DNA from: Clostridia bacterium
GTDB lineage: Bacteria; Bacillota; Clostridia; Oscillospirales; CAG-272
Direction: 5' to 3'
Assembly: GCA_017463865.1 (NCBI GenBank)
Contig: JAFTOI010000018.1
Location: forward strand, 1 to 63,604
DNA: 63,604 nt
Positions within the stretch are counted from its first letter, which is position 1. Every line of letters begins with the position of its first letter. Shown here one piece after another: positions 12,235 through 47,038 of the stretch. Under the pieces are notes generated by a model. It saw nothing but the letters and a program-made list of their open reading frames with translations. It was not told the DNA's origin and made no database searches. A program made the position numbers and the translations under genes.

Positions 12235-12492
12235 ATGGAAACCCGTGTTGCGGTCATGAGCATCATTGTCGAGCGGGGCGATACCGTCGAGCCGCTCAAC
12301 GCCCTGCTGCACGAATACGGCGAATACATCATCGGGCGCATGGGCATCCCCTACCGCCCGCGGAAGATCAGCATCATCAGCATCGCGCTGGACGCCCCGC
12401 AGAACACCATTGCCGCCCTCTCGGGCAAGATCGGCAATCTGCCCGGCGTCAGCGTCAAAACGGCCTATTCGAGCGTGATCAGCCATGAATGA
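12235..12492 (+). CDS. TM1266-like putative regulator of the iron-only hydrogenase system
   Basis: 85 residues with the ferredoxin-like ACT/NikR-type fold pattern of the TM1266 family (strands at 3-11, 41-50, 66-80). In Thermotoga and many Clostridia this small protein sits beside hydE and hydG and is described as a putative regulator of the [FeFe]-hydrogenase system; the ligand is unknown. The ATG at 12235 has TGGAGG 8 bases upstream. Its end overlaps the start of hydE by 8 bases, so the two are translationally coupled. Confidence 0.85.
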   Translation: METRVAVMSIIVERGDTVEPLNALLHEYGEYIIGRMGIPYRPRKISIISIALDAPQNTIAALSGKIGNLPGVSVKTAYSSVISHE

Positions 12493-13534
12493 GCACCTTT
12501 TTCCCCTCATCGACCGGCTGACAGCCGAGCATCGGCTCTCACTTGACGAATACGAATATCTCATCGCCCACCGCACCCCCGAGGCCGCCGCGCGGCTGGC
12601 CGAGCATGCGGTGCGCGCGCGGCAGGCCATCTATGGCAAGACCGTCTACATCCGCGGGCTGATCGAGGTTAGCAACATCTGCAAAAACGACTGCCTCTAC
12701 TGCGGCATCCGCCGCAGCAACCCGAACTGCCAACGCTACCGCCTGCCCCCCGCCGATATCCTCGCCTGCTGCCGGGAGGGATATGCCCTCGGTTTCCGCA
12801 CCTTCGTCCTGCAAGGGGGCGAGGACGGCTACTATACCGACGCCCTGCTCTGTGACCTCCTGCGCCGGATCAAGGCCGAATGGCCCGACTGTGCCGTCAC
12901 CCTATCGCTGGGCGAACGTAGCCGGGAGAGCTATGCGGCGCTGCGGGACGCAGGCGCCGACCGCTATTTGCTGCGGCATGAGACGGCCGACGCGGCGCAT
13001 TATGGGTCGCTCCACCCGTCAGCGATGTCCTACGACAACCGCATGCGCTGCCTGCGCGACCTCAAGGAATTGGGCTATCAGGTGGGCTGCGGCTTCATGG
13101 TCGGCCCGCCCGGGCAGACGGCCGCGCATCTGGCGCGCGATCTGCACTTTGTGGAGACCTTCCAGCCTGCGATGTGCGGCATCGGTCCCTTTATCCCGCA
13201 GGCCGACACGCCATTTGGCCATGAGCCGGCAGGGACGCTGGAGCTGACCTGCTATCTGCTCTCGATCATCCGGCTGATCCGGCCCAATATTCTGCTGCCC
13301 GCCACCACGGCGCTGGGCACCATCCACCCCGAGGGGCGGGAGCTGGGCATCCTCGCCGGGGCGAATGTGGTAATGCCCAATCTGTCCCCGGCGGCTGTCC
13401 GGAAGAAGTATCTGCTCTACGACAACAAGGCGTCGGACGGCGCCGAGTCTGCGCAGTGCAAGGAAGCCCTGATCCAACGCATGTCCTCGATCGGCTACAC
13501 CATTGTGACCGATCGCGGCGATATAAAGCTGTGA
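12485..13534 (+). CDS. hydE: [FeFe]-hydrogenase H-cluster radical SAM maturase HydE
   Basis: 349 residues. Radical SAM enzyme that helps build the diiron subcluster of the H-cluster; known work points to processing of an iron-cysteine complex supplied by HydG. The radical SAM motif is Cys66-x3-Cys70-x2-Cys73 in SNICKNDCLYCGIR, followed by GEDGYYT-like and GPPGQT segments of the family. The second, auxiliary cluster of some HydE proteins is not obvious here. It overlaps the TM1266-like gene and is followed 61 bases later by hydG. Confidence 0.95.
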   Translation: MNEHLFPLIDRLTAEHRLSLDEYEYLIAHRTPEAAARLAEHAVRARQAIYGKTVYIRGLIEVSNICKNDCLYCGIRRSNPNCQRYRLPPADILACCREGYALGFRTFVLQGGEDGYYTDALLCDLLRRIKAEWPDCAVTLSLGERSRESYAALRDAGADRYLLRHETADAAHYGSLHPSAMSYDNRMRCLRDLKELGYQVGCGFMVGPPGQTAAHLARDLHFVETFQPAMCGIGPFIPQADTPFGHEPAGTLELTCYLLSIIRLIRPNILLPATTALGTIHPEGRELGILAGANVVMPNLSPAAVRKKYLLYDNKASDGAESAQCKEALIQRMSSIGYTIVTDRGDIKL

Positions 13535-13595
13535 ACAAATTGTAACATCTGAAGCGGAAGAGCAATCTGACGCACAAGAAAAGGAGAATTCAACG

Positions 13596-15053
13596 ATGGC
13601 AATCTACGACCCCAAATCCCTCCGCGCGGAGGAATTCATCAACGACGAGGAAATCCGCGCCACCCTGGCTTACGCGGAAGCCAACAAGAACAATGTCGAG
13701 CTGATCGACCAGATCCTGGAAAAGGCCCGTCCGCAGAAGACGGCCACCGGCCATGTCTGCGCAGGCCTGACCCACCGCGAGGCCTCCGTCCTGCTGGCCT
13801 GTGAGATTCCCGAAAAAATCGAGCGGATGTACCAGATCGCCGAGGAGATCAAGCTGGCCTTCTACGGCAACCGCATTGTCATCTTCGCACCGCTGTATCT
13901 GTCCAACTACTGCGTCAACGGCTGCGTCTACTGCCCCTATCACCTCAAAAACAAGCACATCCCGCGCAAAAAGCTGACGCAGGAGGAGGTACGCGCCGAG
14001 GTCATCGCCCTGCAGGACATGGGGCACAAGCGGCTGGCCATCGAGTCGGGCGAGGATCCGGTCAACAACCCGATTGAGTACATCCTGGACTGCATCAAGA
14101 CCATCTACTCGGTGCATCACAAGAACGGCGACATTCGCCGCGTGAATGTGAACATTGCGGCCACGACGGTCGACAACTACCGCCGACTGAAGGAGGCCGG
14201 CATCGGCACCTACATCCTCTTCCAGGAAACCTACCACAAGGAGAGCTACCTCGAGCTGCACCCCACCGGGCCGAAGCATGACTATGCCTACCACACCGAG
14301 GCGATGGACCGCGCGATGGAGGGCGGCATCGACGATGTGGGGCTGGGCGTGCTGTTCGGGCTGGAGCTATACAAATACGAATTTGCGGGTCTGCTGATGC
14401 ATGCTGAGCATCTGGAGGCTGTGCACGGTGTCGGGCCGCACACCATTTCGGTGCCTCGTCTGAAGCGCGCCGACGACATTGACCCCGACCAGTTCGACAA
14501 CGGCATTGATGACGAAACCTTCGCCAAGATCACGGCCTGCATTCGTCTGGCTGTTCCCTACACCGGCATCATCATCTCCACCCGCGAGAATGAGCAGGTG
14601 CGGGGCAAGCTGCTGAATCTCAGCGTTTCGCAGGTGTCGGGCGGGTCGCGCACCTCGGTGGGCGGCTATGCCGGCTACTCGGCAGAGGAGCGCCCCCACG
14701 ACACCGAGCAGTTCGACGTCTCCGACCAGCGCAGTCTGGACGAGGTCGTCCGCTGGCTGATGGAGAACGGGCACATTCCGTCCTTCTGCACGGCCTGCTA
14801 CCGCGAGGGCCGCACCGGCGACCGCTTCATGAGCCTGTGCAAGAGCGGGCAGATCCTCAACTGCTGCCATCCCAACGCGCTGATGACGCTGTCCGAGTAT
14901 CTGGAGGACTACGCGTCGCCTGAGACGAAGGAGGTCGGCTACAAGATGGTTGAGGAGGAGCTGAAGCGCATCCCGAAGGACAAGGTGCGCGCCATTGCGG
15001 AGGACAACATCAAGGCGATCAAGGCGTCGAACCGCCGCGATTTCCGGTTCTGA
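13596..15053 (+). CDS. hydG: [FeFe]-hydrogenase H-cluster radical SAM maturase HydG
   Basis: 485 residues, full length. Splits tyrosine to p-cresol, CO and cyanide for the H-cluster. The SAM cluster motif is Cys106-x3-Cys110-x2-Cys113 (CVNGCVYC). The C-terminal auxiliary cluster motif is CTAC...CC at about 398-427 (FCTACYREGRTGDRF then ILNCCHP). Both clusters needed for CO/CN production are therefore present. Shine-Dalgarno AAAAGGAG lies just upstream of the ATG. Third gene of the maturation operon. Confidence 0.96.
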   Translation: MAIYDPKSLRAEEFINDEEIRATLAYAEANKNNVELIDQILEKARPQKTATGHVCAGLTHREASVLLACEIPEKIERMYQIAEEIKLAFYGNRIVIFAPLYLSNYCVNGCVYCPYHLKNKHIPRKKLTQEEVRAEVIALQDMGHKRLAIESGEDPVNNPIEYILDCIKTIYSVHHKNGDIRRVNVNIAATTVDNYRRLKEAGIGTYILFQETYHKESYLELHPTGPKHDYAYHTEAMDRAMEGGIDDVGLGVLFGLELYKYEFAGLLMHAEHLEAVHGVGPHTISVPRLKRADDIDPDQFDNGIDDETFAKITACIRLAVPYTGIIISTRENEQVRGKLLNLSVSQVSGGSRTSVGGYAGYSAEERPHDTEQFDVSDQRSLDEVVRWLMENGHIPSFCTACYREGRTGDRFMSLCKSGQILNCCHPNALMTLSEYLEDYASPETKEVGYKMVEEELKRIPKDKVRAIAEDNIKAIKASNRRDFRF

Positions 15054-15063
15054 GGAGGTATCC

Positions 15064-16266
15064 ATGGGACTGAACGAGACTGTATCGGCTGAACGTCTGC
15101 ATATCGGCTTTTTCGGCATGCGGAATGCCGGCAAATCGAGTCTGGTCAACGCCGTTACCGGGCAGCAGCTGGCGGTGGTGTCGGATGTGAAGGGCACCAC
15201 CACCGACCCGGTGAAAAAAGCCATGGAGCTGCTGCCGCTGGGGCCGGTGGTCATCATCGACACGCCGGGGCTTGACGACGAGGGCGAGCTGGGCGAGCTT
15301 CGTGTCGCGAAGGCGAAGCAGATCCTTGCCCAGACCGACATTGCGGTGCTGGTCATCGACGGCACGGCGGGGATGAGCGCACAGGACGAGGCGCTGATCG
15401 AGCAATTTCAGGCGCGGAAGCTGCCCTATCTGATCGCATATAACAAGGCTGATCTGACAGCCGACCGTCCGGCGTCGGGTGAGAGCACGCTCTATGTCAG
15501 CGCGGCGACCGGCGAGGGTGTTCACGCACTGAAGGAAGCGCTGGGCCGCTTTGCGGCGGCGCGAAAGGCGCCGAAGGTGCTGGTCGCCGATCTGCTCAGC
15601 CCCGGCGACGTGGTGGTGCTGGTAACCCCCATCGACGAATCGGCCCCGAAGGGGCGGCTGATCCTGCCCCAGCAGCTGACCCTCCGGGACATCCTCGACG
15701 CCCACGCGGCGGCGGTGGTCTGCCAGCCGGAGGAGCTGAAGCAAACGCTGGCGGGTCTGGCGAAGAAGCCACGCATGGTCATCACCGACTCGCAAGCCTT
15801 CGGCCGGGTGAGCGCCGATGTACCGGCGGATATTCCGCTGACCTCCTTCTCGATCCTGATGGCGCGCTACAAGGGCGACCTGAAGGCGCTGGTGCGGGGG
15901 GCAGCTATCCTCCGCGGACTGCGGGACGGGGATCGGGTACTGATCTCCGAGGGCTGCACGCATCACCGGCAGTGCAACGACATTGGGACGGTGAAGATCC
16001 CCGGCTGGATCGAGGGCTTCTCCGGCGCGAAGCCGGCCTACGCCTTTACCTCGGGGGGCGAGTTCCCCGACGACCTGTCTTCCTTCCAGCTGATCGTCCA
16101 CTGCGGCGGGTGCATGCTGAACGAGGCTGAGATGAAGCACCGCATTGAGCGGGCAACGGAGGCGGGCGTGCCGATCGTCAACTATGGCATCGCCATCGCG
16201 CAGATGCACGGCATCCTCGCGCGCAGTGTGGAGCTTTTTCCCGACGTGGCGGCGCTGTTAGGGTGA
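15064..16266 (+). CDS. hydF: [FeFe]-hydrogenase maturation GTPase HydF
   Basis: 400 residues. Scaffold GTPase that holds the diiron precursor and passes it to the apo-hydrogenase. P-loop GMRNAGKSS at 18-26, DTPG near 73-76, NKAD near 130. Cluster ligands in the C-terminal domain: Cys298 with His300/His301 (CTHH) and Cys347/Cys350 (HCGGC). The ATG at 15064 has GAGGAGG directly upstream, 10 bases after the hydG stop. A perfect GGGTGAA/TTCACCC hairpin covers the stop codon. With hydE and hydG the maturation set is complete. Confidence 0.95.
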   Translation: MGLNETVSAERLHIGFFGMRNAGKSSLVNAVTGQQLAVVSDVKGTTTDPVKKAMELLPLGPVVIIDTPGLDDEGELGELRVAKAKQILAQTDIAVLVIDGTAGMSAQDEALIEQFQARKLPYLIAYNKADLTADRPASGESTLYVSAATGEGVHALKEALGRFAAARKAPKVLVADLLSPGDVVVLVTPIDESAPKGRLILPQQLTLRDILDAHAAAVVCQPEELKQTLAGLAKKPRMVITDSQAFGRVSADVPADIPLTSFSILMARYKGDLKALVRGAAILRGLRDGDRVLISEGCTHHRQCNDIGTVKIPGWIEGFSGAKPAYAFTSGGEFPDDLSSFQLIVHCGGCMLNEAEMKHRIERATEAGVPIVNYGIAIAQMHGILARSVELFPDVAALLG

Positions 16267-17921: not shown

Positions 17922-18581
17922 TTATAGCAGTGTAAAGCGCTTTTTATCGCTCTCGATGATTCCTTCCCTGCGCATGCGGCTGATCTCAGCCGAGAGGCCG
18001 CTGCGGTCGACCTCGAGATAATCGGCCAGCTCCTGCCGGTCGAAGGGGATCTCGAAGCTGTTCGAGCCAGCCTTCTGTGCCTGCAGCATCAGGTAGGCCA
18101 TCAGCTTCTCCCGGGTCGAGCGCTTGGAGGTGATCTCCGCCTTCTGGTGGAAGATGAGGGTCTTGTTTGCCAGGTCCTTCATGAGGTTGAAGATCAGCTG
18201 CTGGTGGAAGCCGCAGTGGTTCGAGCAGGTGTGCAGGATGTGCGAGCAGTCGATGAGCATGACCTCGCTCGGCTCATTGGCGATCACGGTGACCGGGATC
18301 GCCGGCACCTCGGCGCAGGCGAAGGCCTCACCGAACACATCGGTGGGCTCGAGCTCGGTCAGGATGCTGCGGTTGCCGTAGTAGTCGATCCGCACGACCT
18401 GGGCGGTGCCCGACAGCAGAATGCCGATGTATTTGGCCGGGCTGCCCTCGGCGAAGATGGTGTATTTTTTGTCGAAGACCTCGATCTTCGCCCCGAGGCA
18501 GCCGAGCATGCGGAGCAGGTCGTCCGCCCCGATCTGGGCAAACAGCGGACAGCGCTGCAGGAGCTTCAGATATTTTTTCAT
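17922..18581 (-). CDS. Crp/Fnr-family transcription regulator
   Basis: 219 residues: cyclic-nucleotide-binding-like beta barrel (about 15-125), dimer helix, and C-terminal helix-turn-helix (ELADYLEVDRSGLSAEISRMRREG, about 178-201). The ATG at 18581 is preferred because GGAG lies 9 bases before it; the in-frame ATG at 18596 has no ribosome site and would place a palindrome over the codon. Cysteines at about 11, 43, 91 and 109-125 are not in a standard FNR cluster layout, so the ligand is unknown. It is divergent from the flavodiiron protein, its likely target, and near the hydrogenase cluster. Confidence 0.9.
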   Translation of the reverse strand: MKKYLKLLQRCPLFAQIGADDLLRMLGCLGAKIEVFDKKYTIFAEGSPAKYIGILLSGTAQVVRIDYYGNRSILTELEPTDVFGEAFACAEVPAIPVTVIANEPSEVMLIDCSHILHTCSNHCGFHQQLIFNLMKDLANKTLIFHQKAEITSKRSTREKLMAYLMLQAQKAGSNSFEIPFDRQELADYLEVDRSGLSAEISRMRREGIIESDKKRFTLL

Positions 18582-18595
18582 TTTTTCTTTCTCCA

Positions 18596-18611
18596 TGTTG
18601 AAATTTCAACA
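18596..18611. promoter_or_regulatory. Crp/Fnr-type operator palindrome
   Basis: TGTTGAAATTTCAACA, a perfect 16-base palindrome with the 5-6-5 geometry of Crp-family sites (TGTTG-N6-CAACA). It lies upstream of both divergent genes and touches the -35 region of the flavodiiron gene (TTCAAC at 18605-18610 with TATACT at 18628-18633, 17-base spacer). Confidence 0.7.
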
Positions 18612-18696
18612 GACTTCTTAGGTTTATTATACTATAATATTATCAGAACCGCAAGAGACAAACAAAAAATTTACATGATGATAGAGGAGAACCACT

Positions 18697-20487
18697 ATGT
18701 TTATCAGCGACAGCATCAAATATATCGGCGTCAACGACCGCCGGGTCGACCTGTTTGAGGGTCAGTATGTCGTGCCGAACGGCATTTCCTACAACTCCTA
18801 TGCCATTCTCGACGACAAGATCGCCATCATGGACACCGTCGACGCCGGCTTCACCCACGAGTGGCTGGACAATCTCCAGAACGCGCTGGGCGATCGGCGG
18901 CCCGACTATCTGATCGTCCAGCACATGGAGCCCGACCACGCGGCCAACATCCACAATTTTGCCCGCACCTACCCCGAAGCAAAGATCGTCGCATCGGCCA
19001 AGGCTTTCGCCATGATGAAGAACTTCTTCGGCACCGATTATCCCGACCGTCAGGTCGTGGTCGGCGAGGGGGATACGCTGTCGCTGGGCGCGCATCAGCT
19101 GACCTTCGTCACCGCGCCGATGGTACACTGGCCCGAGGTCATCGTGACCTACGACAGCACCGACAAGGTGCTCTTCTCGGCCGACGGCTTCGGCAAGTTC
19201 GGCACGCCCGACACCGACGAGCCCTGGGCTGACGAGGCCCGCCGCTATTTCATCGGCATCGTCGGCAAGTACGGCGCGCAGGTACAGGCGCTGCTCAAGA
19301 AGGCAACAGGGCTGGATATCCAGACCATCTGCCCCCTGCACGGCCCGGTGCTGAACGAGAACCTCGGCTACTACCTGAATCTGTACAACACCTGGTCGAG
19401 CTACCAGCCCGAGGAGGAAGGCATCGTTATCGCCTACACCTCGGTCTACGGCAACACCAAGAAGGCCGTCCAGCTGCTGGCCGACCGTCTGACGGCGAAC
19501 GGCTGCCCGAAGGTGGTCGTCTATGATCTCGCCCGCTGCGACATGGCGGCCGCGGTCGGCGACGCCTTCCGCTACAGCAAGCTGGTGCTGGCCACCACCA
19601 CCTACAATGCCGAGATCTTCCCCCACATGCGCGACTTCATCGCGCACCTGACCGAGCGCAATTACCAGAACCGCACCGTTGCCCTCATCGAGAACGGCAG
19701 CTGGGCGCCGATGGCGGCCAAGGTCATGCGCGGCCTGCTGGAGAAGAGCAAGAACCTGACCTTCACCGACACCACCGTGCGCATCCTCTCGGCCCTGAAT
19801 GAGGAGAGCGGCGCGCAGCTGAACGCCCTCTGCGACGAGCTTTGCCGCGAGTACCTCGCGCAGCGCGACGAAACGGCCAACAAGAACGATCTGACCGCCC
19901 TCTTCAACATCGGCTACGGCCTGTATGTCGTCACCTCGAACGACGGCCGAAAGGACAACGGTCTGATTGTCAACACCGTCACGCAGGTGACCAACACCCC
20001 CAACCGCCTGGCCGTGACCATCAACAAGGCCAACTATTCGCACCACGTCATCAAGCAGACCGGCAAGATGAACATCAACTGCCTGACCGAGGACGCACCC
20101 TTCGCGGCCTTTGAGAAGTTCGGCTTCCAGAGCGGCCGGAATGTGGATAAGTTCGCCGGGTGCGAGCCGCTTCGCTCGGACAATGGGCTGGTCTTCCTGC
20201 CGCGGCACATCAACTCCTTCATGTCGCTGAAGGTCGAGCAGTACATCGACCTCGACACCCACGGCATGTTTATCTGCTCGGTCACCGAGGCGCGGGTGCT
20301 CTCCGACCGCCCGACCATGACCTACACCTACTACCAGAATCATGTCAAGCCGAAGCCGGCGACCGACGGCAAGAAGGGCTTCGTCTGCAAGGTCTGCGGC
20401 TATGTGTACGAGGGCGAGACCCTGGCCGAGGATTTTGTCTGCCCGCTCTGCAAGCACGGCGCGGCTGACTTTGAGGAGATCAAGTAA
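18697..20487 (+). CDS. multidomain flavodiiron protein (FprA-type) with flavin reductase and rubredoxin domains
   Basis: 596 residues. Reduces O2 to water or NO to N2O in known homologues. Domain order: metallo-beta-lactamase diiron domain (1-245; ligand motif His76-x-Glu78-x-Asp80-His81), flavodoxin domain (about 250-390; YTSVYGNTKKA for FMN phosphate), flavin-reductase-like domain (about 395-540; TSNDGRKDNGLIVNTV), rubredoxin (about 546-596; CKVCGY and CPLCKHG). Electrons could pass from NAD(P)H or a partner to flavin reductase or rubredoxin and on to the FMN and diiron site in one chain. AGAGGAG precedes the ATG. Divergent from a Crp/Fnr regulator. Confidence 0.93.
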   Translation: MFISDSIKYIGVNDRRVDLFEGQYVVPNGISYNSYAILDDKIAIMDTVDAGFTHEWLDNLQNALGDRRPDYLIVQHMEPDHAANIHNFARTYPEAKIVASAKAFAMMKNFFGTDYPDRQVVVGEGDTLSLGAHQLTFVTAPMVHWPEVIVTYDSTDKVLFSADGFGKFGTPDTDEPWADEARRYFIGIVGKYGAQVQALLKKATGLDIQTICPLHGPVLNENLGYYLNLYNTWSSYQPEEEGIVIAYTSVYGNTKKAVQLLADRLTANGCPKVVVYDLARCDMAAAVGDAFRYSKLVLATTTYNAEIFPHMRDFIAHLTERNYQNRTVALIENGSWAPMAAKVMRGLLEKSKNLTFTDTTVRILSALNEESGAQLNALCDELCREYLAQRDETANKNDLTALFNIGYGLYVVTSNDGRKDNGLIVNTVTQVTNTPNRLAVTINKANYSHHVIKQTGKMNINCLTEDAPFAAFEKFGFQSGRNVDKFAGCEPLRSDNGLVFLPRHINSFMSLKVEQYIDLDTHGMFICSVTEARVLSDRPTMTYTYYQNHVKPKPATDGKKGFVCKVCGYVYEGETLAEDFVCPLCKHGAADFEEIK

Positions 20488-20493
20488 AATAAA

Positions 20494-20523
20494 TCCGCCT
20501 CCGAGCACATGATCGGAGGCGGA
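20494..20523 (+). terminator. intrinsic terminator after the flavodiiron gene
   Basis: Perfect 11-base stem TCCGCCTCCGA / TCGGAGGCGGA, then ACTGTTTTATTT. Confidence 0.8.
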
Positions 20524-20536
20524 ACTGTTTTATTTA

Positions 20537-20660
20537 AGCCTTCCTCCCCGAGGGAGGCGGCGGCACAGCCGTCGGAGGGAGTTTCCGCCAACCAAACGAC
20601 TGCGGCGGACTCCCTCAGTCACGGCAGAGCTGTGCCAGCTCCCTCGCAGAGGGAGCTTTT
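20537..20660. repeat. palindromic repeat family C, copy 1 (double unit)
   Basis: First half: CTTCCTCCCCGAGGGAGG, GGCACAGCC, GTCGGAGGGAGT. Second half: ACTCCCTCAGTCACGGC, GCTGTGCC, AGCTCCCTCGCAGAGGGAGCT. The halves are inverted relative to each other. A single unit of the same type is at 63154-63205. It fills the gap between the two convergent transcripts and ends in a T-run. Confidence 0.8.
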
Positions 20661-22112
20661 TTACTTCAGCATCGACACCGCGCTGGTGATGGTCTTCTCC
20701 ATCGCCTCGCGGCCGTACTTGTCGACCTCGGCCTTGTTCTTCTCGCCGTGGGTCAGGCAGCCGGCGCCGCCGATGCAGCCGCCGATGCACGCCATGCCCT
20801 CGATGAAGTTGGCGTCGAGAACGTTTTTGCTCTTCTTCAGCAGCGCCACGCGGCAGGCCTCGATGCCGTCGCAGGGCAGTGCCTTGAGGTCGAACTCGAT
20901 GTTTTGCTCCTTCAGACCCTGAACGACCGCGTCAGACAGGCCGCCCGAACGGGCGAAGATACGGCCGAAGTAGGAGGCGTTGTCGAGCACGTCCTCTTCC
21001 AGCGTCGTGATGTCGATATCGCGGCTGTCAAAGAGAGCCTGCAGCTCCTCGAAGGTCAGGACGGCGTCGACATACGGCTTCACCGTATCCAGCTGGGCCT
21101 CAGCCTTCTTGGCCGTGCAGGGGCCGATGAAGACGACCTTGGCGTCCTTGTGCGTCTCCTTGATGTACTTGGCCAGCGTTGCCATGGGCGAGAGGTTGTG
21201 CGAAACGTAGGGCAGCAGGTCGGGGAAGGCCGACTTGATGTAGGCCACGAATGCGGGGCAGCAGGAGCTGGTCAGGAAGCCTTTTTCGGCCAGCTCGCGC
21301 GACTCGGCCTGGGCGACCATGTCGGCGCCCAGTGCGGCCTCAATGACGGTGTAGAAGCCCAGCTCCTTGAGGCCGGAGATGACCTGGCCCAGCTTGGCGT
21401 AGGTGAACTGGCTCGAGATGGAGGGAGCAACCATGGCGTAGACCTTATACTTACTGTTCTTCTCGCTTCCCTTGATCAGGTCGATGACGCTGAGGATGTA
21501 GGACTTGTCGGTGATGGCGCCGAAGGGGCACTGGTAGACGCATGCACCGCAGGAGATGCATTTCTCGTCGTCGATGGACGCGGCCTTGTTCTCGTTCATC
21601 GAGATGGCCTTGACCTTGCAGGCGTTCTGGCAGGGGCGCTTGCGGCTGACGATGGCGGTGTAGGGGCAGACCTTGGCGCAGGCGCCGCACTCGATGCACT
21701 TGGACTTGTCAATGTGCGCCACATGGTTCTGGTCAAAGGTAATCGCGCCCCGCTTGCAGACGTCCTCGCAGCGGTGAGCCAGACAGCCGCGGCAGGCGTT
21801 GGTCACCTCATAACCGCCGACGGGGCACTCATCGCAGGCGATGTCGATGACCTGAATAACATTGGACTTATCGGAATCGCCGCCCATGGCCAGCTTGACG
21901 CGCTCGCCTAAGATCGCGCGCTCCTTGTATACGCAGCAGCGCATGGTCGGCTCGTTGCCCGGAACGATGATCTTGGGCACGTCAAGGACATGCTCGAGCA
22001 GGTTGTCCTGCCAGGCCAGCCGGGCCACCTCGCGCAGGACCTTGTATTTCAGGTGCTGCACCTTTGTATCAAACTTACGTACTTTTGTGTTTTGTGCTTT
22101 GGTATTCTCCAC
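20661..22112 (-). CDS. [FeFe]-hydrogenase, group B-like, with N-terminal ferredoxin domains
   Basis: 483 residues. N-terminal half (about 75-215) carries many Cys in 4Fe-4S motifs, including CDEC, CRGC, CIECGACAKVC and CISCGACVYQC. The C-terminal H domain has the four H-cluster ligands: Cys in TSSCCPAF near 288, GPCTAKK near 331, and two in GMACIGGCIGG near 446-450. TSSCCPAF and the absence of the group-A TSCCPGW form suggest group B, whose in vivo direction is not settled. The start is GTG with AAGGAGG 8 bases upstream. Last gene of the sensory cluster, 13 bases after the phosphatase. Confidence 0.85.
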   Translation of the reverse strand: MENTKAQNTKVRKFDTKVQHLKYKVLREVARLAWQDNLLEHVLDVPKIIVPGNEPTMRCCVYKERAILGERVKLAMGGDSDKSNVIQVIDIACDECPVGGYEVTNACRGCLAHRCEDVCKRGAITFDQNHVAHIDKSKCIECGACAKVCPYTAIVSRKRPCQNACKVKAISMNENKAASIDDEKCISCGACVYQCPFGAITDKSYILSVIDLIKGSEKNSKYKVYAMVAPSISSQFTYAKLGQVISGLKELGFYTVIEAALGADMVAQAESRELAEKGFLTSSCCPAFVAYIKSAFPDLLPYVSHNLSPMATLAKYIKETHKDAKVVFIGPCTAKKAEAQLDTVKPYVDAVLTFEELQALFDSRDIDITTLEEDVLDNASYFGRIFARSGGLSDAVVQGLKEQNIEFDLKALPCDGIEACRVALLKKSKNVLDANFIEGMACIGGCIGGAGCLTHGEKNKAEVDKYGREAMEKTITSAVSMLK

Positions 22113-22125
22113 TTCAGCGTCCTCC

Positions 22126-23298
22126 TTAGAAATAGCTTACCTTAATGCGCTTACCCATCAGCTTCAGGCATTTGGAAAGCTCCTCAACCAGGTTCATTTT
22201 GATATTGAAATTGATCGGCAGATCGGGGTTCTGATGCGCGGGGTTGACCGCTCTGCCTACATAGAAATTGATGTCTGTCGCTTCTTCAAAGAGCAGCTGG
22301 CAGATCAGCGAAGCGCCGTCGCGCTTGAAGTTCCACTGCTCATACAGCTCGTTTTGGTCAATGTAGTCCCGGGCATATTCCAGCACCCGGTTGACCGTGA
22401 TGACGCCCTCGGTGACCAGATCGACGCCCTCCAGTTCGGCGATGGGCGGCACGTCGGAGCGCTCGAAATTCAGGCTGGCCCGCAGGGGCTTGCCGAGATA
22501 TTTGGCGGCGATGGACGAGGTCGTGCCGCCGCAGATGATGTGCTTGCCCTCCTTGGAGAAAAAGAGCGCCATCATGCGGTTGCAGTCGTCGCGGTTGGAG
22601 GGGGGGCCGAAGAGGATGTTCATCGGCTCGCGCCGCCGGATCTTCACCACGCAGGCCGTGGTGTCGTCGCCCGGCTTGTTGCCGTAGAGGCGGTCGCACT
22701 CATCCACGAGGATGGTCGAGAGGTTTTTGGCCGTGAAGCCGCCGGGGGCCAGATCTTCCATATAGTGAATGATCTCCTCGCGCTTCCAGCCGAAGTTGAA
22801 GAAGCCGCCGATGCCCGCGTGGGAGCAGCCGTCGCTCATGGCGATGAAGATATCGTTCTCCTGCAGCTTCAGCGTGGTACTGATGATCTTTTTGCCGTCG
22901 ATGTTCATCTCGGTGCGCGGGTACTCATAGTTCACGCCGTCGCGCAGTACGATGACCTGCGGGTTGTCGTACTGGATGATGGTGGCCGTCTCGTTATCCA
23001 GCAGGTGGATGATGGTGAAGGTCGAATAGGCCACGCCCCGCACCGAGCAGACGGGGAGGGTCGCGGCGATGGTCGACACGCACTCCTCGATGGGCAGGCC
23101 GGCGGCCATCATGGTGGAGATGATCTTGGAGGTCAGCGTGGACAGGATGCTTGCCTTGACCCCGCTGCCCAGACCGTCGGCCAGAACGATGACGGTGGAG
23201 TTTTCGCTGTCCTCGATGATATCCACATGGTCGCCGCACAGCTCCTCGCCGTAGTGATTGATGCTTTTATAGCCGATATCGGCGCACAGATCATTCAT
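22126..23298 (-). CDS. SpoIIE-type PP2C serine/threonine phosphatase
   Basis: 390 residues. Residues 1-225 are the phosphatase domain: DHVDII near 25, VLADGLGSGVKAS near 40-52, the SDGCSHAG segment near 158-166 and GDDTTACVVKI near 213-223, giving the metal-binding Asp residues. The rest (about 230-390) is an extra domain with an ICGGTTSSIAAKYLGK segment of unknown role. The ATG at 23298 is preferred over the TTG two codons earlier, since AAGGAG lies 10 bases before the ATG. It overlaps the sensory hydrogenase gene by 8 bases, so the two are coupled. It would remove phosphate from Ser/Thr of a target; no kinase lies in the cluster. Confidence 0.88.
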   Translation of the reverse strand: MNDLCADIGYKSINHYGEELCGDHVDIIEDSENSTVIVLADGLGSGVKASILSTLTSKIISTMMAAGLPIEECVSTIAATLPVCSVRGVAYSTFTIIHLLDNETATIIQYDNPQVIVLRDGVNYEYPRTEMNIDGKKIISTTLKLQENDIFIAMSDGCSHAGIGGFFNFGWKREEIIHYMEDLAPGGFTAKNLSTILVDECDRLYGNKPGDDTTACVVKIRRREPMNILFGPPSNRDDCNRMMALFFSKEGKHIICGGTTSSIAAKYLGKPLRASLNFERSDVPPIAELEGVDLVTEGVITVNRVLEYARDYIDQNELYEQWNFKRDGASLICQLLFEEATDINFYVGRAVNPAHQNPDLPINFNIKMNLVEELSKCLKLMGKRIKVSYF

Positions 23299-24976
23299 TC
23301 GCAATCGACTCCTTCAGCTTGGTCAGGGCGATCTTGGTCTCGGCGGCTGTCTCGCCGAGCAGGGAGGCGATCTCCTGCACGATGCGCATCTGTTTGTCGA
23401 CCACGCGGTCGGCGACCTCGATGGTCTGGCGGCTGATGCTCTCCTTCTTTTCCTTCTCGGTCTCCTCGTCGGACACGTCGCGCATGATACCGATCAGCAG
23501 GTGGGAATCGCGATCATAGACGATGGTCTGCTCAACATAGCGCTTGTACTCGGCGAGGTAGACGCGCTGGTCGCGCACGCCCTTGCCGCTCTGCAGGACG
23601 TTGACGAAGACGGTGGGATCGAGGATGCGAATGACCGGCTCGCCGAGGACATCCGAGGATGTGCGGATGTTCATGATCTTCTTGGCCGCGGCGTTGATCT
23701 GCTGCACCTCGAGATTTTCGTTAAGGACGATCAGGCCGTTGGGGGTGTTCTTGACGATGGTATCCGAGAAGCTCTCGGCCTTGTCCTTGAGGAAGGGCAG
23801 GCACATCGAGATCTCGGCCTTGCCCTGGCAGATGGCAATGGCCTTCTCACGGCAGGAGTTATAGCCGCAGGTGCCGCAGTTGAGCTCATCCGCAGGCTTG
23901 AACTTGCCCATCTGGCGCAGGACAGCTGCGATCTCGGTCTCAGACGGCGGGGCGAGCTTATGCTCGATGTAGGTGAACTGCTTCTTCAGCTCGACCGGGC
24001 GGGGCTGGTGGACGTCGAAGTCCTTCGGGCCGGCAAAGCTGGCCACGGCCATGTAGTCCTGGACCGGCGAGCGGTGGTTCTTCTCCATGACGGGGCCGCC
24101 GATGCAGCTGCCGACGCAGGACGACATTTCGATGAAGCACTTGTGGATCTTGCCGCTCTCGATGTCCTTGAGGGCGGACATGCAGTTTTCGACCCCGTCG
24201 AGGGCCAGGTAGGTGTACCCGGGCGCATCCTGCGCCATGGTCTTGAGCACGCCGCCGGTGGTCGGGAAAAAGCGAGCGCGGCTGTTCTCGTCGGCGTCCA
24301 GCTCCTGCTCGAGCTCGATCTGCTCTTTTTTGAGCCATTCGGTCAGCTCGTCGAAGGTCAGGACGGCGTCCACGATGCCGCTGTAGTGCTCGGCCTCGTC
24401 CTTTTTGGCGACGCAGGGGCCGATGAAGACGGTCTTGGCGTTGGGATAGCGCTTCTTGATGTCGCCGCAGTGCGCCTGCATCGGCGAGACGACATCGGCC
24501 AGATACTCCAGCGCCACGGGGAAGTATTTCTGAATGAGCAGGTTAATGGAGTGGCAGCAGGACGAGATAATGATGTCCCGGTCGTCCTCCTTCAGCATGC
24601 GCTCGTATTCGGTTTTGACGATGGTCGCACCCTGCGCGGTCTCCTCGACGTCAAAGAAGCCGAGCTTCTTGAGCGCGCGCCGCATGGCGCCGATGCCCAC
24701 ACCGTCATAATTCGCGATAAACGAGGGGGCGAGGCTGACGATGACGGGGTCGCCGCTCTGCAGGAAGACCTTGACCTTTTCGGTCTCGTCGACGACCTCC
24801 TTGGCATTCTGCGGGCAGACAACAAAGCAATGGCCGCACAGAATACATTCGTTGCCGATGATGTGGGCCTGGTTGCCGGAGAAACGGATCGACTTGACCG
24901 GACAGTAACGGATGCACTTGTAGCAGTTTTTACAGTTGGATTTTTTGAGTGTCAGGCAGTTCGGCATCGTTGTCAC
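23291..24976 (-). CDS. PAS-domain sensory [FeFe]-hydrogenase (HydS-like, group C)
   Basis: 561 residues. Two 4Fe-4S motifs at the N-terminus (CKNCYKCIRYC and CILCGHCFVVC, residues 14-60), then an H domain with ISSCCHSIN near 141, GPCVAKK near 186 and EMSSCVGSCIGG near 285, then a CGTCGYNSC...C 4Fe-4S segment near 350-380, a PAS domain near 400-490 (TPNGLIVLNENLEVQQINAAA), and a helical tail. The group-A MACPGGC motif reads SSCVGSC, so the Met near the distal iron is Ser. Homologues are proposed to sense H2 or redox state rather than turn over H2 fast. Start GTG, overlapping the previous ferredoxin stop (GTGA). Confidence 0.88.
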   Translation of the reverse strand: MTTMPNCLTLKKSNCKNCYKCIRYCPVKSIRFSGNQAHIIGNECILCGHCFVVCPQNAKEVVDETEKVKVFLQSGDPVIVSLAPSFIANYDGVGIGAMRRALKKLGFFDVEETAQGATIVKTEYERMLKEDDRDIIISSCCHSINLLIQKYFPVALEYLADVVSPMQAHCGDIKKRYPNAKTVFIGPCVAKKDEAEHYSGIVDAVLTFDELTEWLKKEQIELEQELDADENSRARFFPTTGGVLKTMAQDAPGYTYLALDGVENCMSALKDIESGKIHKCFIEMSSCVGSCIGGPVMEKNHRSPVQDYMAVASFAGPKDFDVHQPRPVELKKQFTYIEHKLAPPSETEIAAVLRQMGKFKPADELNCGTCGYNSCREKAIAICQGKAEISMCLPFLKDKAESFSDTIVKNTPNGLIVLNENLEVQQINAAAKKIMNIRTSSDVLGEPVIRILDPTVFVNVLQSGKGVRDQRVYLAEYKRYVEQTIVYDRDSHLLIGIMRDVSDEETEKEKKESISRQTIEVADRVVDKQMRIVQEIASLLGETAAETKIALTKLKESIANE

Positions 24977-25233
24977 GACCTTTCCTGTTCAATGGGCTTT
25001 AAGATATGCTCCAGAAAAAATTCTCTGAAATTTTCGGGGGTAATCCCGACGTGGACGTCATCGTCCACCTGGACGGTGACGCCGACGCGGTTGCAGCTGC
25101 CGATGCAGAAGCTGCCGGCCAGGGTGACATCGTCCTGCAGGTGATATTCCTCAACTGCCTTCTGCAGGCGCTCGACGATCTCCGCCGAGCCCTTGAGATG
25201 GCATGAGCTTCCGACGCAGATCTGAACGATCAT
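24973..25233 (-). CDS. thioredoxin-like [2Fe-2S] ferredoxin (NuoE-like)
   Basis: 86 residues. Ligand pattern Cys6-x4-Cys11 (CVGSSC) and Cys43-x3-Cys47 (CIGSCN), as in the [2Fe-2S] domain of NuoE/HydC-type subunits. The separate small form is typical of operons with sensory or monomeric [FeFe]-hydrogenases. It likely carries electrons to the hydrogenase-like proteins downstream. Overlaps the sensory hydrogenase start by 4 bases; AAGG precedes the ATG. Confidence 0.87.
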   Translation of the reverse strand: MIVQICVGSSCHLKGSAEIVERLQKAVEEYHLQDDVTLAGSFCIGSCNRVGVTVQVDDDVHVGITPENFREFFLEHILKPIEQERS

Positions 25234-25237
25234 ACGC

Positions 25238-25477
25238 TCAGACCTTCGCGAGAACTTCGTTCTGGAAGAAGCTCTCCACCGTGTCGGGGGTGACCGAGTG
25301 GAAGCTGTCGTCCACCGTGACGCAGACGCCCTTCTGACATTCGCCCATGCAGAAAGTGCCGCCCAGATCGACCTTGTCGCCGAGATTGTTGGCAGCGATC
25401 AGCGCCTGCAGCTGCTCAACGACCTGACGGGAGCCCTTAATGTGGCAGGAGCTGCCAATACATACTGTGATTTTCAT
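25238..25477 (-). CDS. thioredoxin-like [2Fe-2S] ferredoxin (NuoE-like), paralogue
   Basis: 79 residues, clear paralogue of the next gene: CIGSSCHIKGS and FCMGECQKGVCVTV carry the four ligands. The ATG at 25477 has GAGG just upstream; a longer frame to 25558 has no ribosome site and starts in the promoter area. First gene of the five-gene minus-strand cluster; gap to the second ferredoxin is 4 bases. The two copies differ at the second motif (extra Cys in KGVCVTV), so they may have different partners. Confidence 0.87.
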   Translation of the reverse strand: MKITVCIGSSCHIKGSRQVVEQLQALIAANNLGDKVDLGGTFCMGECQKGVCVTVDDSFHSVTPDTVESFFQNEVLAKV

Positions 25478-25573
25478 CGTTTTCTTCCTCTCTATGTAAT
25501 ATCGAATATGGATGACCGGGGATAGCGGGGCAAACACGGAGCGGATGCTCCGCAGCATGTAATCTCAGCTTAT

Positions 25574-25602
25574 ATTCTACCACATTCCAAGACATATTTC
25601 AA
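25574..25602 (-). promoter_or_regulatory. promoter of the sensory hydrogenase cluster
   Basis: On the minus strand TTGAAA (25602-25597), 17-base spacer, TAGAAT (25579-25574). The start codon is about 97 bases downstream. TTGAAAT in the -35 box resembles a half of the palindrome at 18596. Confidence 0.75.
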
Positions 25603-25634
25603 GTCTTTTTTCGCATTGCGTGCTCACACAAAAA

Positions 25635-25660
25635 AACAAGACGGGAAAACCCGTCTTGTT
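25635..25660 (-). terminator. intrinsic terminator after alanine dehydrogenase
   Basis: Perfect 11-base stem AACAAGACGGG / CCCGTCTTGTT with 4-base loop, followed on the minus strand by a T-run (TTTTTGTG). Confidence 0.88.
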
Positions 25661-25677
25661 TGAGATACGGCTGAGGC

Positions 25678-26790
25678 TCAAAGTGCGTCGGAGAGCGTGG
25701 TGTAGCCGAGGCCAAGGCTGGCGGCGACGTTTTTGTTGGTGCACTTGCCGCGGCAGATGTTGACGCCGTCGGCCAGGCCCGCGTCCTTCGCGGCGGCGCC
25801 GGCGACACCGAGATCCGCCAGCATCAGGCCGTAGCGCAGGGTGGAGTTGGTCAGCGCCACGGTCGAGGTGTAGGGGACGGCGCCGGGCATGTTGCCGACG
25901 CAGTAGTGGACGATGCCCTCTTCGATGTAGATGGGCTCGTCGTGGGTGGTGACGTGGGAGGATTCGCAGCAGCCGCCCTGGTCGATGGCGATGTCGACGA
26001 TGACAGCGCCCTTCTTCATCAGGGGAAGATGCTCGCGGCGGACCAGCTTGGGGGTGGAGCCGCCGGGGATGAGAACCGAGCCGATGACGAGGTCAGCCTC
26101 GGCCAGTGCGCGGCGGATATTGGCCTCGGTGCTGTAGAGGGTGGTGACCGAAGCGCCGAAGATATCCTCGAGGTAGGCGAGGCGGTTGGCGTTGACGTCG
26201 AGCAGGGTGACCTGCGCGTCGATACCGACGGCCGCCTTGGCGGCGTAGGTGCCGGCGACACCGCCGCCGATGATGACGATCTTGCCGCGCTGGACACCGG
26301 GCACACCACCGAGCAGAATGCCGCGGCCGCCGAAGCCCTTCTCGAGGTACTTCGCGCCCTCCTGAACAGAGAGGCGGCCGGCGATCTGGCTCATGGGGCG
26401 CAGGCAGGGGAGGTTGCCCTGGCTGTCGGTGATGGTCTCATAGGCAATGGCGATGACGTTCTTTTCGATCAGCTTGGCGGCAAACTCGGGGTTTGCGGCA
26501 AGGTGGAGGTAGGTGTAAAGGATCTGCCCTTCGCGGAGGTAGTCGTACTCGCAGGGCTCCAGCTCCTTGACCTTGACGATCATTTCGGCGGCAGCGAAGA
26601 CCTCTTCGGGGGTATCGAGGAGGATGGCGCCGGCGGCGGCGTACTCCTCATCGGCGAAACCTGCGCCGATGCCGGCGCTCCGCTCAACATAGACGGTGTG
26701 GCCCTTGGCGGTGTAGGCGAGCACATTGTCGGGGGTCAGGCCGACGCGGTATTCGTGGTTTTTGAGTTCCTTGGTGGTTCCGATCTTCAT
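25678..26790 (-). CDS. ald: alanine dehydrogenase
   Basis: 370 residues. Interconverts L-alanine and pyruvate plus ammonia with NAD(H). The N-terminal PNTAlaDh motif is clear ([20 protein letters not shown]), His in TYLHLAAN near 95, the nucleotide motif [12 protein letters not shown] near 172-183 and Asp in DVNANR near 197-202. The conserved [12 protein letters not shown] segment is near 298-309. Its own promoter and terminator make it a single-gene unit. In a fermenter it can serve alanine catabolism or ammonia/NADH balance. Confidence 0.95.
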
Positions 26791-27247: not shown

Positions 27248-29215
27248 ATGACCCCATCCACCACCACAGCGCCGGCGGGGCGCAAAAAGAAGAAGCGCGT
27301 CGGACGGCGGATCATTCTGACGCTCGTCATTCTCGTCCTGCTCGGCGGGGCGGCGTTCGGCGTGTACTGGCTCTTCTTCCGGGAGACGCCCAAGGTTGCC
27401 ATGACCGACAAGACCACCTTCGGCGCGCTTGACCGAGCCATCGAGGGCTCAGGCACGACGGTGCCGGCTGAGACGCTGGCCATCACAGCCGCTTCTCGCG
27501 CAGAAATTAAAGAGGTCTATGTCAAGGCCGGAGACTATGTTGAGGAGGGCCAGCTGCTCTACACTCAGGACGACAGCGAGATCGACGAGAAGATCGCCGA
27601 CTACGAGGAGGAGATCGAAACCTACGAGGACGAGATCACCGAGTACGAGAACTCCATCGTTGAGCAGCAGAACAACATCACCGACTACAACGAGAAGATT
27701 GCCGACTACTACACCGAGATCGCCGAGGTCAACGAGGCCCGGCAGAACCTGACCATCCGCGCCGATTTCGCCGGCAAGATCACCAAGCTGAACGCCGAGG
27801 TGGGCAAGAATGTCAACTCGGGTACGACGCTGGCCGTTCTGACCGACGAGAGCACGATGACTCTGACGCAGTATTTCAGCTATGCCTACGCCGATCAGGT
27901 CAAGGTCGGCATGGCGGCCAAAATCTCGGTCAGCGGGCAGATGCTGACACTGGACGGCACGGTCAGCGCCGTCAGCTGGGTCGAGCGCATTACCGACGAG
28001 GGCATGAAGTGCTTCGCCGTGACGGTCAAGCTGGCCAACCCCGGCGTGCTACAGTCGGGCGAGAGCGCAGCCTGCTACCTCATCACCGACGACGGCACCC
28101 GGTTATATCCCGCGCTCGATGGCGTGCTGGAGTGGAGAGCCACCGAGAACATCACGGCCGGCGCCTCGGGCGAGCTGACAGCCATCAAGGTTGCCGACTA
28201 CGATCAGGTCGCGGCTGGACAGGTGCTCTTCGTCATCGACGCCACGACCTACGACACGCAGCTGGAGAATCTCCAGAAGCAGATCGAAAACTGTCAGAAA
28301 CAGATCACACAAGCCGAGAAGCAGATCACGAACTACGAAAAAAAGATCGAATCGACCAAAGAAAAGATCGAGACAACCCGCGAGAGCATCGCGGAGACCG
28401 AGGAGTCGCGCGCCGACTTTGCCATGCGCAGTGAGATCTCGGGCAAGGTCATGTACTGCACCGTCGAGGCGGGCGATACCCCCAACACGATGATGTCGAT
28501 CATCACCATTTATAATATGGATACCATGACCATCTCGGTCAACTTCGACGAGCTCGACGTCGACTACATCAGCGAGGGCACCAAGGTGACCATCACCCGC
28601 ACCAGTGCGGAGCGCAATACTTATTATGAAGGCACCATCACCTACCTCAGCCCCGAGGCGACCTCCTCGAACGGTGTGGCGACCTTCGCCGCCACCATTG
28701 AGATCGACTCGAAGGGCGAGCTTTCCTCGGGCGTCAGCGTCAGCTACAGCATCTCCCTCGGCGACAGCGAGGAGGGCGTGCTGGCCCCCATCTCTGCGCT
28801 GAAGTCGCATGAGGATCAGTATTACCTCTACGTCAAGGCCGACGAGCGGCCGGCGAACGCCGTTGATCTGGTTGATCCCGAGACTGAAGTGCCGGAGGGC
28901 TTCTATGCCGTGCCGGTCGAAGTCGGCAACGCAAATGCGCAGTACATCCGCATCCTCTCAGGCGTCGAGAAGGACGTCGAGGTCTTCACCCGCTACCGCC
29001 AGCAGGCGCCCAGCGGCGGCAGCAGCACCAGTGACAAGCAGGGCGATGACGAAATGAGCTTCGAGGATATGTTCGGCTCGGGTGCGATGCCCAGCTTCGG
29101 CGGGCAGTCCGGCGGCATGCCCAGCTTCGGCGGAAGCAGTGGCGGCGCAAGCAAAACGCCGTCCATGCCCAGCGGCGGCGGCCAGTCGGGCGGCGGACGC
29201 GGCAGCAGAGGGTAA
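27248..29215 (+). CDS. HlyD/MacA-type membrane fusion protein with two tandem adaptor modules
   Basis: 655 residues, longer than the usual 350-450. N-terminal basic stretch and one membrane span (about 20-45, after KKKKRVGRR). Module 1: lipoyl half near 80-105, coiled coil rich in E/Y/I (about 110-160), lipoyl half (ADFAGKITKLNAEVG), beta-barrel. Module 2 repeats this: TAGASGELTAIKVADYD, coiled coil rich in K/Q (LENLQKQIENCQKQIT...), then RSEISGKVMYCTVEAGD and barrel. The last 60 residues are Gly/Ser/Pro/Met-rich (MPSFGG twice). The ATG at 27248 has CAGGAGG upstream. First gene of an operon with a MacB-type ATPase and permease. Confidence 0.87.
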   Translation: MTPSTTTAPAGRKKKKRVGRRIILTLVILVLLGGAAFGVYWLFFRETPKVAMTDKTTFGALDRAIEGSGTTVPAETLAITAASRAEIKEVYVKAGDYVEEGQLLYTQDDSEIDEKIADYEEEIETYEDEITEYENSIVEQQNNITDYNEKIADYYTEIAEVNEARQNLTIRADFAGKITKLNAEVGKNVNSGTTLAVLTDESTMTLTQYFSYAYADQVKVGMAAKISVSGQMLTLDGTVSAVSWVERITDEGMKCFAVTVKLANPGVLQSGESAACYLITDDGTRLYPALDGVLEWRATENITAGASGELTAIKVADYDQVAAGQVLFVIDATTYDTQLENLQKQIENCQKQITQAEKQITNYEKKIESTKEKIETTRESIAETEESRADFAMRSEISGKVMYCTVEAGDTPNTMMSIITIYNMDTMTISVNFDELDVDYISEGTKVTITRTSAERNTYYEGTITYLSPEATSSNGVATFAATIEIDSKGELSSGVSVSYSISLGDSEEGVLAPISALKSHEDQYYLYVKADERPANAVDLVDPETEVPEGFYAVPVEVGNANAQYIRILSGVEKDVEVFTRYRQQAPSGGSSTSDKQGDDEMSFEDMFGSGAMPSFGGQSGGMPSFGGSSGGASKTPSMPSGGGQSGGGRGSRG

Positions 29216-46851: not shown

Positions 46852-46880
46852 ATTATACCCGACTTTGGCGTATTTGTCAA
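46852..46880 (-). promoter_or_regulatory. sigma-70 promoter of ribulokinase
   Basis: Minus strand TTGACA (46880-46875), 17-base spacer, TATAAT (46857-46852). Confidence 0.87.
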
Positions 46881-47038
46881 AGGGTTTATAAAAATTTACA
46901 CATCTGACGCAGAGGAAGATACATTCCGACATGCTTTACGCACAAAATCCTGCTTTAAGCCGCAAAAAATCCGCAAAATATGGAACAAAATGCAATTTTC
47001 TTCGTCTATCTCTATACCACCGTGAAAGGAGCTCCCCC

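Follow-up and report, generated by a model that had tools for sequence, protein, structure and literature searches.

A five-gene [FeFe]-hydrogenase operon of a Clostridia bacterium and its possible place in an H2-sensing system with a neighbouring kinase and adhE

What does a sensory hydrogenase control when it is encoded directly before a phosphatase, with no kinase gene alongside? This question is raised by positions 20,661 to 25,602 of a 63,604-nucleotide stretch of DNA (the window, meaning the whole stretch analysed) from a Clostridia bacterium of the CAG-272 lineage of Oscillospirales (assembly GCA_017463865.1, contig JAFTOI010000018.1). All five genes of this locus lie on the minus strand, tightly packed in the order [2Fe-2S]-[2Fe-2S]-HfsB-HfsC-HfsD according to their open reading frames (ORFs). 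An earlier, sequence-only reading had proposed these identities and this order, and Pfam and NCBIfam matches bear out both. We consider it somewhat more probable than its negation (roughly 0.55) that the locus represents the 3' five-gene part of a clostridial H2-sensing operon, in which HfsC, gated by H2 or redox state, would oppose a kinase acting on AdhE or on a regulator. The features concerned are as follows:

20661..22112, minus strand: HfsD/HydA2, group B [FeFe]-hydrogenase (TIGR04105; Ruminococcus albus HydA2)
22126..22626, minus strand: Ct, the C-terminal domain of HfsC, about 165 amino acids (residues ~225-390), without a Pfam family
22126..23298, minus strand: HfsC, SpoIIE/PP2C-type phosphatase (residues ~1-222) plus the unnamed C-terminal domain (Pfam; R. 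albus ortholog)
23291..24976, minus strand: HfsB/HydS, PAS-domain sensory [FeFe]-hydrogenase of group C type (Pfam/NCBIfam; 71% identity to R. albus HydS)
24973..25233, minus strand: HfsA2-type thioredoxin-like [2Fe-2S] protein, 86 amino acids (PF01257)
25238..25477, minus strand: HfsA1-type thioredoxin-like [2Fe-2S] protein, 79 amino acids (PF01257; R. albus comparison)
25574..25602, minus strand: promoter-like site TTGAAA-17-TAGAAT with TG before the -10, the sole such site in 20400-25800
25634..25661, minus strand: terminator-like site between the upstream ald gene and the operon (site search)

Four bases separate the two ferredoxin genes, hfsB and hfsC overlap by 8 bases, and hfsC and hfsD are 13 bases apart. 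The second ferredoxin gene is followed by hfsB after 5 bases if the latter starts at ATG 24967, the start favoured by alignment with R. albus HydS, and overlaps it if GTG 24976 is used. With spacings this small, the five genes are very likely one transcription unit, as had been proposed from the sequence. The first ferredoxin probably starts at ATG 25477 rather than at 25558. The promoter predicted for the operon does exist as a well-placed site, but such sites are no rarer than chance would have them (1 found, 1.2 expected in shuffled sequence); terminator-like sites number 7 in the region, for 4.9 expected. No Rex operator was found near the operon by motif search, the sole match in the window being at 46874-46891, with 3 mismatches.

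Both small proteins match PF01257 (thioredoxin-like [2Fe-2S]), at 33.2 and 37.7 bits for a cut-off of 24.8, and keep the four cluster cysteines; the HfsA1-type protein is 75% identical to the first (2Fe-2S) protein of R. albus. HfsB combines a 4Fe-4S domain, an H-domain (PF02906, 167 bits), a C-terminal FeS domain and a PAS domain, the latter barely above threshold (23.5 bits, cut-off 22.6). With four cluster-ligand cysteines in its H-domain and the C-terminal FeS and PAS domains, it has the layout of group C. HfsD matches the group B model TIGR04105 at 577 bits (cut-off 450), with complete H-cluster motifs. Residues were compared among HfsB proteins above 500 bits (n = 106) and HfsD proteins above 450 bits (n = 35), positions 299, 353 and 497 of CpI being placed by motif letters that we take to be those of that enzyme. 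The cysteine ligands of the H-cluster are intact in 106/106 HfsB and 35/35 HfsD. At the position of CpI Met497, every HfsD (35/35) has Met, and the 106 HfsB proteins have Ser (43), Asn (37), Leu (13) or Met (8), Ser/Asn/Leu thus accounting for 93/106. The proton-relay cysteine (CpI 299) is present in 35/35 HfsD and in 57/106 HfsB, including the window HfsB, which has Cys, Gly and Ser at 299, 353 and 497; Gly353 is also found in 35/35 HfsD. Position numbers are from PMC10055695, which gives 17% as the share of sensory sequences with Cys at 299. This residue pattern agrees with HfsD being catalytic and HfsB being of sensor type, but proves neither role.

HfsC matches SpoIIE (PF07228, 50.5 bits) over residues 32-220, and its aspartates D41, D156, D211 and D212, presumably metal binders, are invariant in 17/17 close relatives (all at least 66% identical). 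We read its genomic context in 119 neighbourhoods (L151-L269) around Ct matches, a subset of the matches from searches of relatives, family, order, class and phylum (75 of the 99 rows of one search, four family loci, and 40 rows of two further searches). Together with the window, they contain 107 full-length phosphatases. A script that scored an upstream neighbour as HfsB-type when its alignment to the profile took in the PAS region found such a hydrogenase directly upstream, on the same strand, for 103 of them (75/77 and 28/30). The count rises to 104/107 when L240 is added by eye, the script having missed it because the stop-to-stop frames of hfsB and hfsC overlap there by 435 bases, just above its limit. 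The three exceptions are a [2Fe-2S] protein and phosphatase with no hydrogenase between them (L168), a phosphatase beside a different hydrogenase cluster (L169), and a phosphatase without a hydrogenase neighbour (L256). The sequence-only reading had named phosphatase homologues mostly lacking a hydrogenase as the result that would count against it; the opposite is observed. A small [2Fe-2S] gene lies upstream of HfsB in 80 of the 103 HfsB-linked phosphatase loci.

The C-terminal domain of HfsC, which the same reading had left as an open point, is indeed a separate domain, and it also occurs as a stand-alone gene without the phosphatase part, near thioredoxin-like [2Fe-2S] domains. As it exists alone, its interpretation as a mere phosphatase accessory is ruled out. 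No Pfam family was found for it (the 74 members scanned gave only scattered, chance-like matches), and a SIS-domain (GmhA-like) fold gained no significant profile match, the best PDB match, 3trj, having E-values of 0.038 and 0.058. A thioredoxin-like [2Fe-2S]-type domain is encoded upstream in 7/7 intact stand-alone Ct loci examined, from four lineages. It is a separate gene in L151, in L152 (with one gene between) and in L235. In L230-L233, from one genus, it forms the C-terminal end of the preceding HydA (ORFs of 665-686 amino acids; i-E-values of 1.8e-5 to 6.9e-11), with the Ct gene directly after; the weakest copy, in L230, lacks one of the four cysteines. Contig-edge pieces (L207, L237, L238) and split or frameshifted copies (L234, L236, L243) were set aside, as were short frames and fragments in G032, G702, G931, G606, G758, G528, G805, G888, G108, G501 and G022. 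The surroundings of stand-alone Ct genes differ: in L151 the gene follows flavin reductase, FeS, fumarate-reductase-like (by eye) and transporter genes; in the case of L152, genes of Rex-like (by Pfam domains), FlK-type thioesterase and lactate/malate dehydrogenase type flank it, and HdrBCA-like ones (by eye) come after this region; in L235 it follows adhE and a kinase; and in L230-L233 it stands between two sets of bifurcating-hydrogenase-like genes. This recurrent association leads us to infer that Ct and the small [2Fe-2S] protein may work as a pair.

The missing kinase had been the other open point. Its absence holds for the window but not for the system, since R. albus and 32 of 46 family hfsC loci carry an APH-fold kinase gene, mostly behind adhE. 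In relatives, neighbour clustering and ORF reading reveal a protein of about 250 amino acids whose gene immediately precedes that of the first ferredoxin. In a Pfam scan of two copies, both hit APH (at 52 and 59 bits) as well as RIO1, and one gave an additional protein-kinase match under the family cut-off; the HGD and D-W motifs are invariant in 14/14. The R. albus copy, annotated as a phosphotransferase, is 73.8% identical to a copy from the genus of the window genome; its existence is not new, as PMC5707799 cites an adjacent Ser/Thr kinase in R. albus. A kinase match in Niallia was dropped, being without annotation.

Co-occurrence was tallied in 146 sampled genomes of the family, with the kinase counted from the best matches listed, and with kinase rows below 89 bits and low-identity adhE rows dropped; two stand-alone rows and the edge fragments G501:C34 and G022 were not counted as hfsC, so that G022 is possibly miscounted as lacking it. 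In this sample, hfsC is found in 45 genomes, the kinase in 54 and adhE in 49. The kinase accompanies hfsC in 35 of the 45 hfsC genomes and adhE in 42 of the 146 genomes, and none of the 25 genomes with both hfsC and adhE lacks it. The ten remaining hfsC genomes (10/45), among them the window genome, have no kinase, and none of these has adhE. Fisher p-values, which ignore kinship and genome incompleteness, are 1.7e-11 for hfsC and kinase, 1.5e-18 for kinase and adhE, and 2.8e-4 for hfsC and adhE. Physical linkage follows the same lines: the kinase is upstream of hfsC on the same strand in 32 of 46 hfsC loci, and adjoins adhE (gap of -3 to 206 bases) in 44 of 60 kinase loci. Neither the kinase nor a full-length adhE was found in the contigs of the window genome, an empty result that is weak as the assembly is 67% complete. 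Directly upstream of the window operon lies ald, in place of a rex-adhE-kinase part (rex was searched for at this position only). This part varies among relatives and does not define hfs operons at large.

Gene order in relatives can be illustrated by G002, from the genus of the window genome, which carries adhE-kinase-hfsA-hfsA-hfsB-hfsC-lactate dehydrogenase-like gene-hfsD. The exact order adhE-kinase-hfsA-hfsA-hfsB-hfsC-hfsD is found in 27 of the 80 nearest loci, and the nearest neighbour of the window by sequence (89%) carries the kinase. Among relatives, one of them from the same genus, a lactate dehydrogenase-like gene between hfsC and hfsD occurs in L292 (7234-8181), L295 and some of the L001-L080 loci, a position that would suit a role in controlling fermentative electron sinks. 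Elsewhere, a stretch of Collinsella aerofaciens, from another phylum, carries adhE and then a kinase of the same APH-fold kind (L314, 2228-5729), with no hydrogenase gene in the stretch; and in L311 (5644-7868) the kinase gene immediately precedes that of a group B-type hydrogenase, in a stretch where neither sensor, phosphatase nor adhE was found.

The reading of the locus as part of an H2-sensing operon draws its support from R. albus orthology, the HfsB linkage in 104/107 loci, the residue patterns and the co-occurrence of kinase and adhE. What we observe is which genes are present, their orthology, their linkage and co-occurrence, and the conservation of H-cluster ligands and phosphatase residues; the signalling steps that we infer would run as follows. 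HfsD would evolve H2 from reduced ferredoxin; HfsB, with its sensor-type H-cluster pocket, would read the H2 or redox state and relay the signal to HfsC by way of its PAS domain and its C-terminal helix; and the [2Fe-2S] proteins may bind the C-terminal domain of HfsC or exchange electrons with it. Where the system is complete, HfsC would oppose the adjacent kinase, the phosphorylated target being AdhE or a regulator of adhE/hfs expression. In the window genome, where kinase and adhE were not found, HfsC might have its target in common with a different kinase, or might act in controlling the hfs operon itself. Published genetics connect these genes with ethanol: in Thermoanaerobacterium saccharolyticum, deletion of hfsA or hfsB is reported to give a higher ethanol yield tied to adhE expression, and deletion of hfsC or hfsD to divert flux to lactate (PMC5707799). 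That the operon here lacks kinase and adhE, unlike its full relatives, gives a hint that the switch evolved for the control of ethanol production.

Several observations weigh against this interpretation. The kinase occurs with adhE in 17 family genomes without hfsC, and with hfsC in ten without adhE. Outside the family it is seldom present (in 11 of 77 class loci and in none of 31 phylum loci with HfsC), and its distribution is patchy: 49 of the 73 loci that could be judged have it and 24 do not, which requires 17 changes on the phosphatase tree (shuffled mean about 20, with 28-48 of 500 shuffles as low as 17; supported branches force at least 5). The scatter of the kinase over the tree leaves gain, loss and transfer indistinguishable and, together with the rarity outside the family, leads us to reject the kinase as a fixed part of the operon. 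Small molecules, moreover, are frequent substrates of APH-fold kinases. HfsB could itself be catalytic, given the proton-relay cysteine of the window protein and of 57/106 homologues. In T. thermosaccharolyticum, hfsD returned by itself to a strain lacking hfsABCD gives an ethanol phenotype like that of an hfsB deletion; hydrogen cycling is the authors' explanation for high ethanol, and no phosphatase is needed there (PMC11837493; also PMC13277313).

The result in T. thermosaccharolyticum would suit a different arrangement, in which HfsABC are structural or electron-transfer partners of HfsD in one multi-subunit H2-handling enzyme, with HfsA and HfsB as redox relays, the phosphatase as a scaffold or minor regulator, and ethanol effects arising through electron flow (hydrogen cycling). 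The tight operon, the [2Fe-2S] proteins, the N-terminal [4Fe-4S] domain of HfsB and the H-cluster ligands kept in 106/106 HfsB speak for it, as do the functional HfsABC hydrogenase without HfsD raised in PMC13277313 and the restoration of the ethanol phenotype by hfsD alone in T. thermosaccharolyticum (PMC11837493). However, many hfsA-hfsB-hfsC stretches have no HfsD-type gene (15 of 80 class loci consist of just these three), the phosphatase residues of HfsC are conserved, HfsB has a PAS domain, and deletion of hfsB is reported to raise benzyl-viologen hydrogenase activity (PMC5707799). We regard such an enzyme as rather unlikely.

The SpoIIE-family PP2C nature of HfsC also allows a partner switch of the SpoIIE/RsbU kind, in which HfsC would dephosphorylate a STAS-type antagonist of a HATPase_c_2 kinase, for example the HATPase beside another hydrogenase cluster. 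The window genome has three HATPase_c_2 matches (contigs 43, 17 and 3, the last below cut-off), and that on contig 17 (L150, 10470-10892) adjoins a second hydrogenase-like gene. Yet only two STAS matches were found in this 67% complete genome, neither near hfs nor on contig 17: one lies beside the HATPase_c_2 gene of contig 43, the pair being presumed SpoIIAA/SpoIIAB from position, and the other is a 609-amino-acid frame with one stop. As relatives carry an APH-fold kinase beside their hfs genes instead, we find a partner switch quite improbable. Finally, a decaying remnant, in which signalling lacks a target without adhE and kinase and HfsD alone is still selected, agrees with the failure to find these two genes in the (67% complete) genome or just upstream and with the same state in nine other sampled family hfsC genomes, but is very unlikely given that all five genes are intact, that ten of 45 sampled hfsC genomes share this state and that kinase-less operons are the common form outside the family.

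Returning to the H2-sensing operon, a more specific version can be offered tentatively, as a possibility well short of even odds. An H2-gated phosphorylation switch on ethanol formation would set the APH-fold kinase against HfsC on AdhE or a direct regulator of it, HfsB being the gate. As part of the same tentative proposal, Ct and the thioredoxin-like [2Fe-2S] domain would form a portable redox module, employed also where sensor hydrogenase and phosphatase are lacking, namely beside fumarate-reductase-like genes, Rex-like/lactate dehydrogenase/HdrABC-like genes and bifurcating hydrogenases. The idea of AdhE as kinase substrate was not met in the open-access literature searched, and may well be in print. 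H2 sensing and switching between H2/acetate and ethanol in fermenting gut bacteria matter for interspecies hydrogen transfer and for ethanol strains, and the mechanism by which hfs mutations raise ethanol yield is still called not known in PMC13277313. The linkage pattern points to a concrete kinase, phosphatase and candidate substrate that are jointly testable, and the window genome, as one of ten sampled family hfsC genomes in which kinase and adhE were not found, provides a natural comparison for a switch without its usual neighbours.

Genes for H-cluster maturation form a separate unit (12485..16266, plus strand), 4.4 kilobases from the operon and on the opposite strand:

12485..13534, plus strand: hydE (recognised by eye)
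13596..15053, plus strand: hydG (profile match)
15061..16266, plus strand: hydF (profile match)

Between them and the operon (17922-20487) are encoded a Crp-type regulator and a flavodiiron-flavin reductase-rubredoxin fusion protein. A palindromic intergenic element lies 3' of hfsD (20530-20660). Its CTCCCTC...CACGGC core has near matches at 28753, 44690 and 63153, and core matches in the window number 25 for 13.3 expected (1 of 100 shuffles as high). On contig 17 (L150, 2790-11263), HydABC-like genes, recognised partly by eye, are accompanied by two HATPase-type genes, a DRTGG protein and a 437-amino-acid hydrogenase-like protein with an FeS domain; this region is a candidate second sensor system.

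How does the locus compare with known systems? By sequence, the window operon is an ortholog of the HydS/HydA2 operon of R. albus, and the sequence-only reading was right to liken its sensory group C hydrogenase, associated with a phosphatase, to HydS. This orthology, together with the correspondence to hfs of Thermoanaerobacterium and to group C3 of HydDB, places it among systems already known, and the hydrogenase-phosphatase arrangement is found in earlier literature (PMC6776011, PMC5707799, PMC11837493 and PMC5037454). In the closest named relative found, plasmid pRUMAL01 of R. albus 7, eight genes are annotated as Rex, AdhE, phosphotransferase, (2Fe-2S), (2Fe-2S), [Fe-Fe] hydrogenase, SpoIIE phosphatase and 4Fe-4S protein. 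The window shares the five-gene order, 2Fe2S-2Fe2S-HydS-SpoIIE phosphatase-HydA2 on one strand, with identities of 71% for HydS, 77% for the phosphatase and 77% for HydA2. In contrast, R. albus has rex, adhE and the phosphotransferase directly upstream, where the window has ald and the terminator-like site. HydS and HydA2 are reported as one transcription unit on pRUMAL01 (PMC10838669). We take these eight genes to be the putative eight-gene cluster (sensory hydrogenase, hydrogenase, alcohol/aldehyde dehydrogenase) for which a 111-fold drop is reported when R. albus is grown together with an H2 consumer (PMC6776011); that source labels the hydrogenase of the cluster group A1, whereas the window HfsD passes the group B model.

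Thermoanaerobacterium hfsABCD is alike in its PAS-hydrogenase HfsB, serine phosphatase HfsC and ferredoxin-linked hydrogenase HfsD (PMC11837493, PMC5707799), but has a single hfsA, reported to align poorly with known proteins, the likeness being one of published description. Likewise matched by table description, HydDB [FeFe] group C3, 'phosphatase-linked (putative)', places a sensory hydrogenase beside a serine/threonine phosphatase (PMC5037454), and the window operon showed no difference from this description. PMC12578642 names group B [FeFe]-hydrogenases as the chief driver of H2 production in the gut; the window HfsD belongs to group B by TIGR04105, but is tied to a sensor operon.

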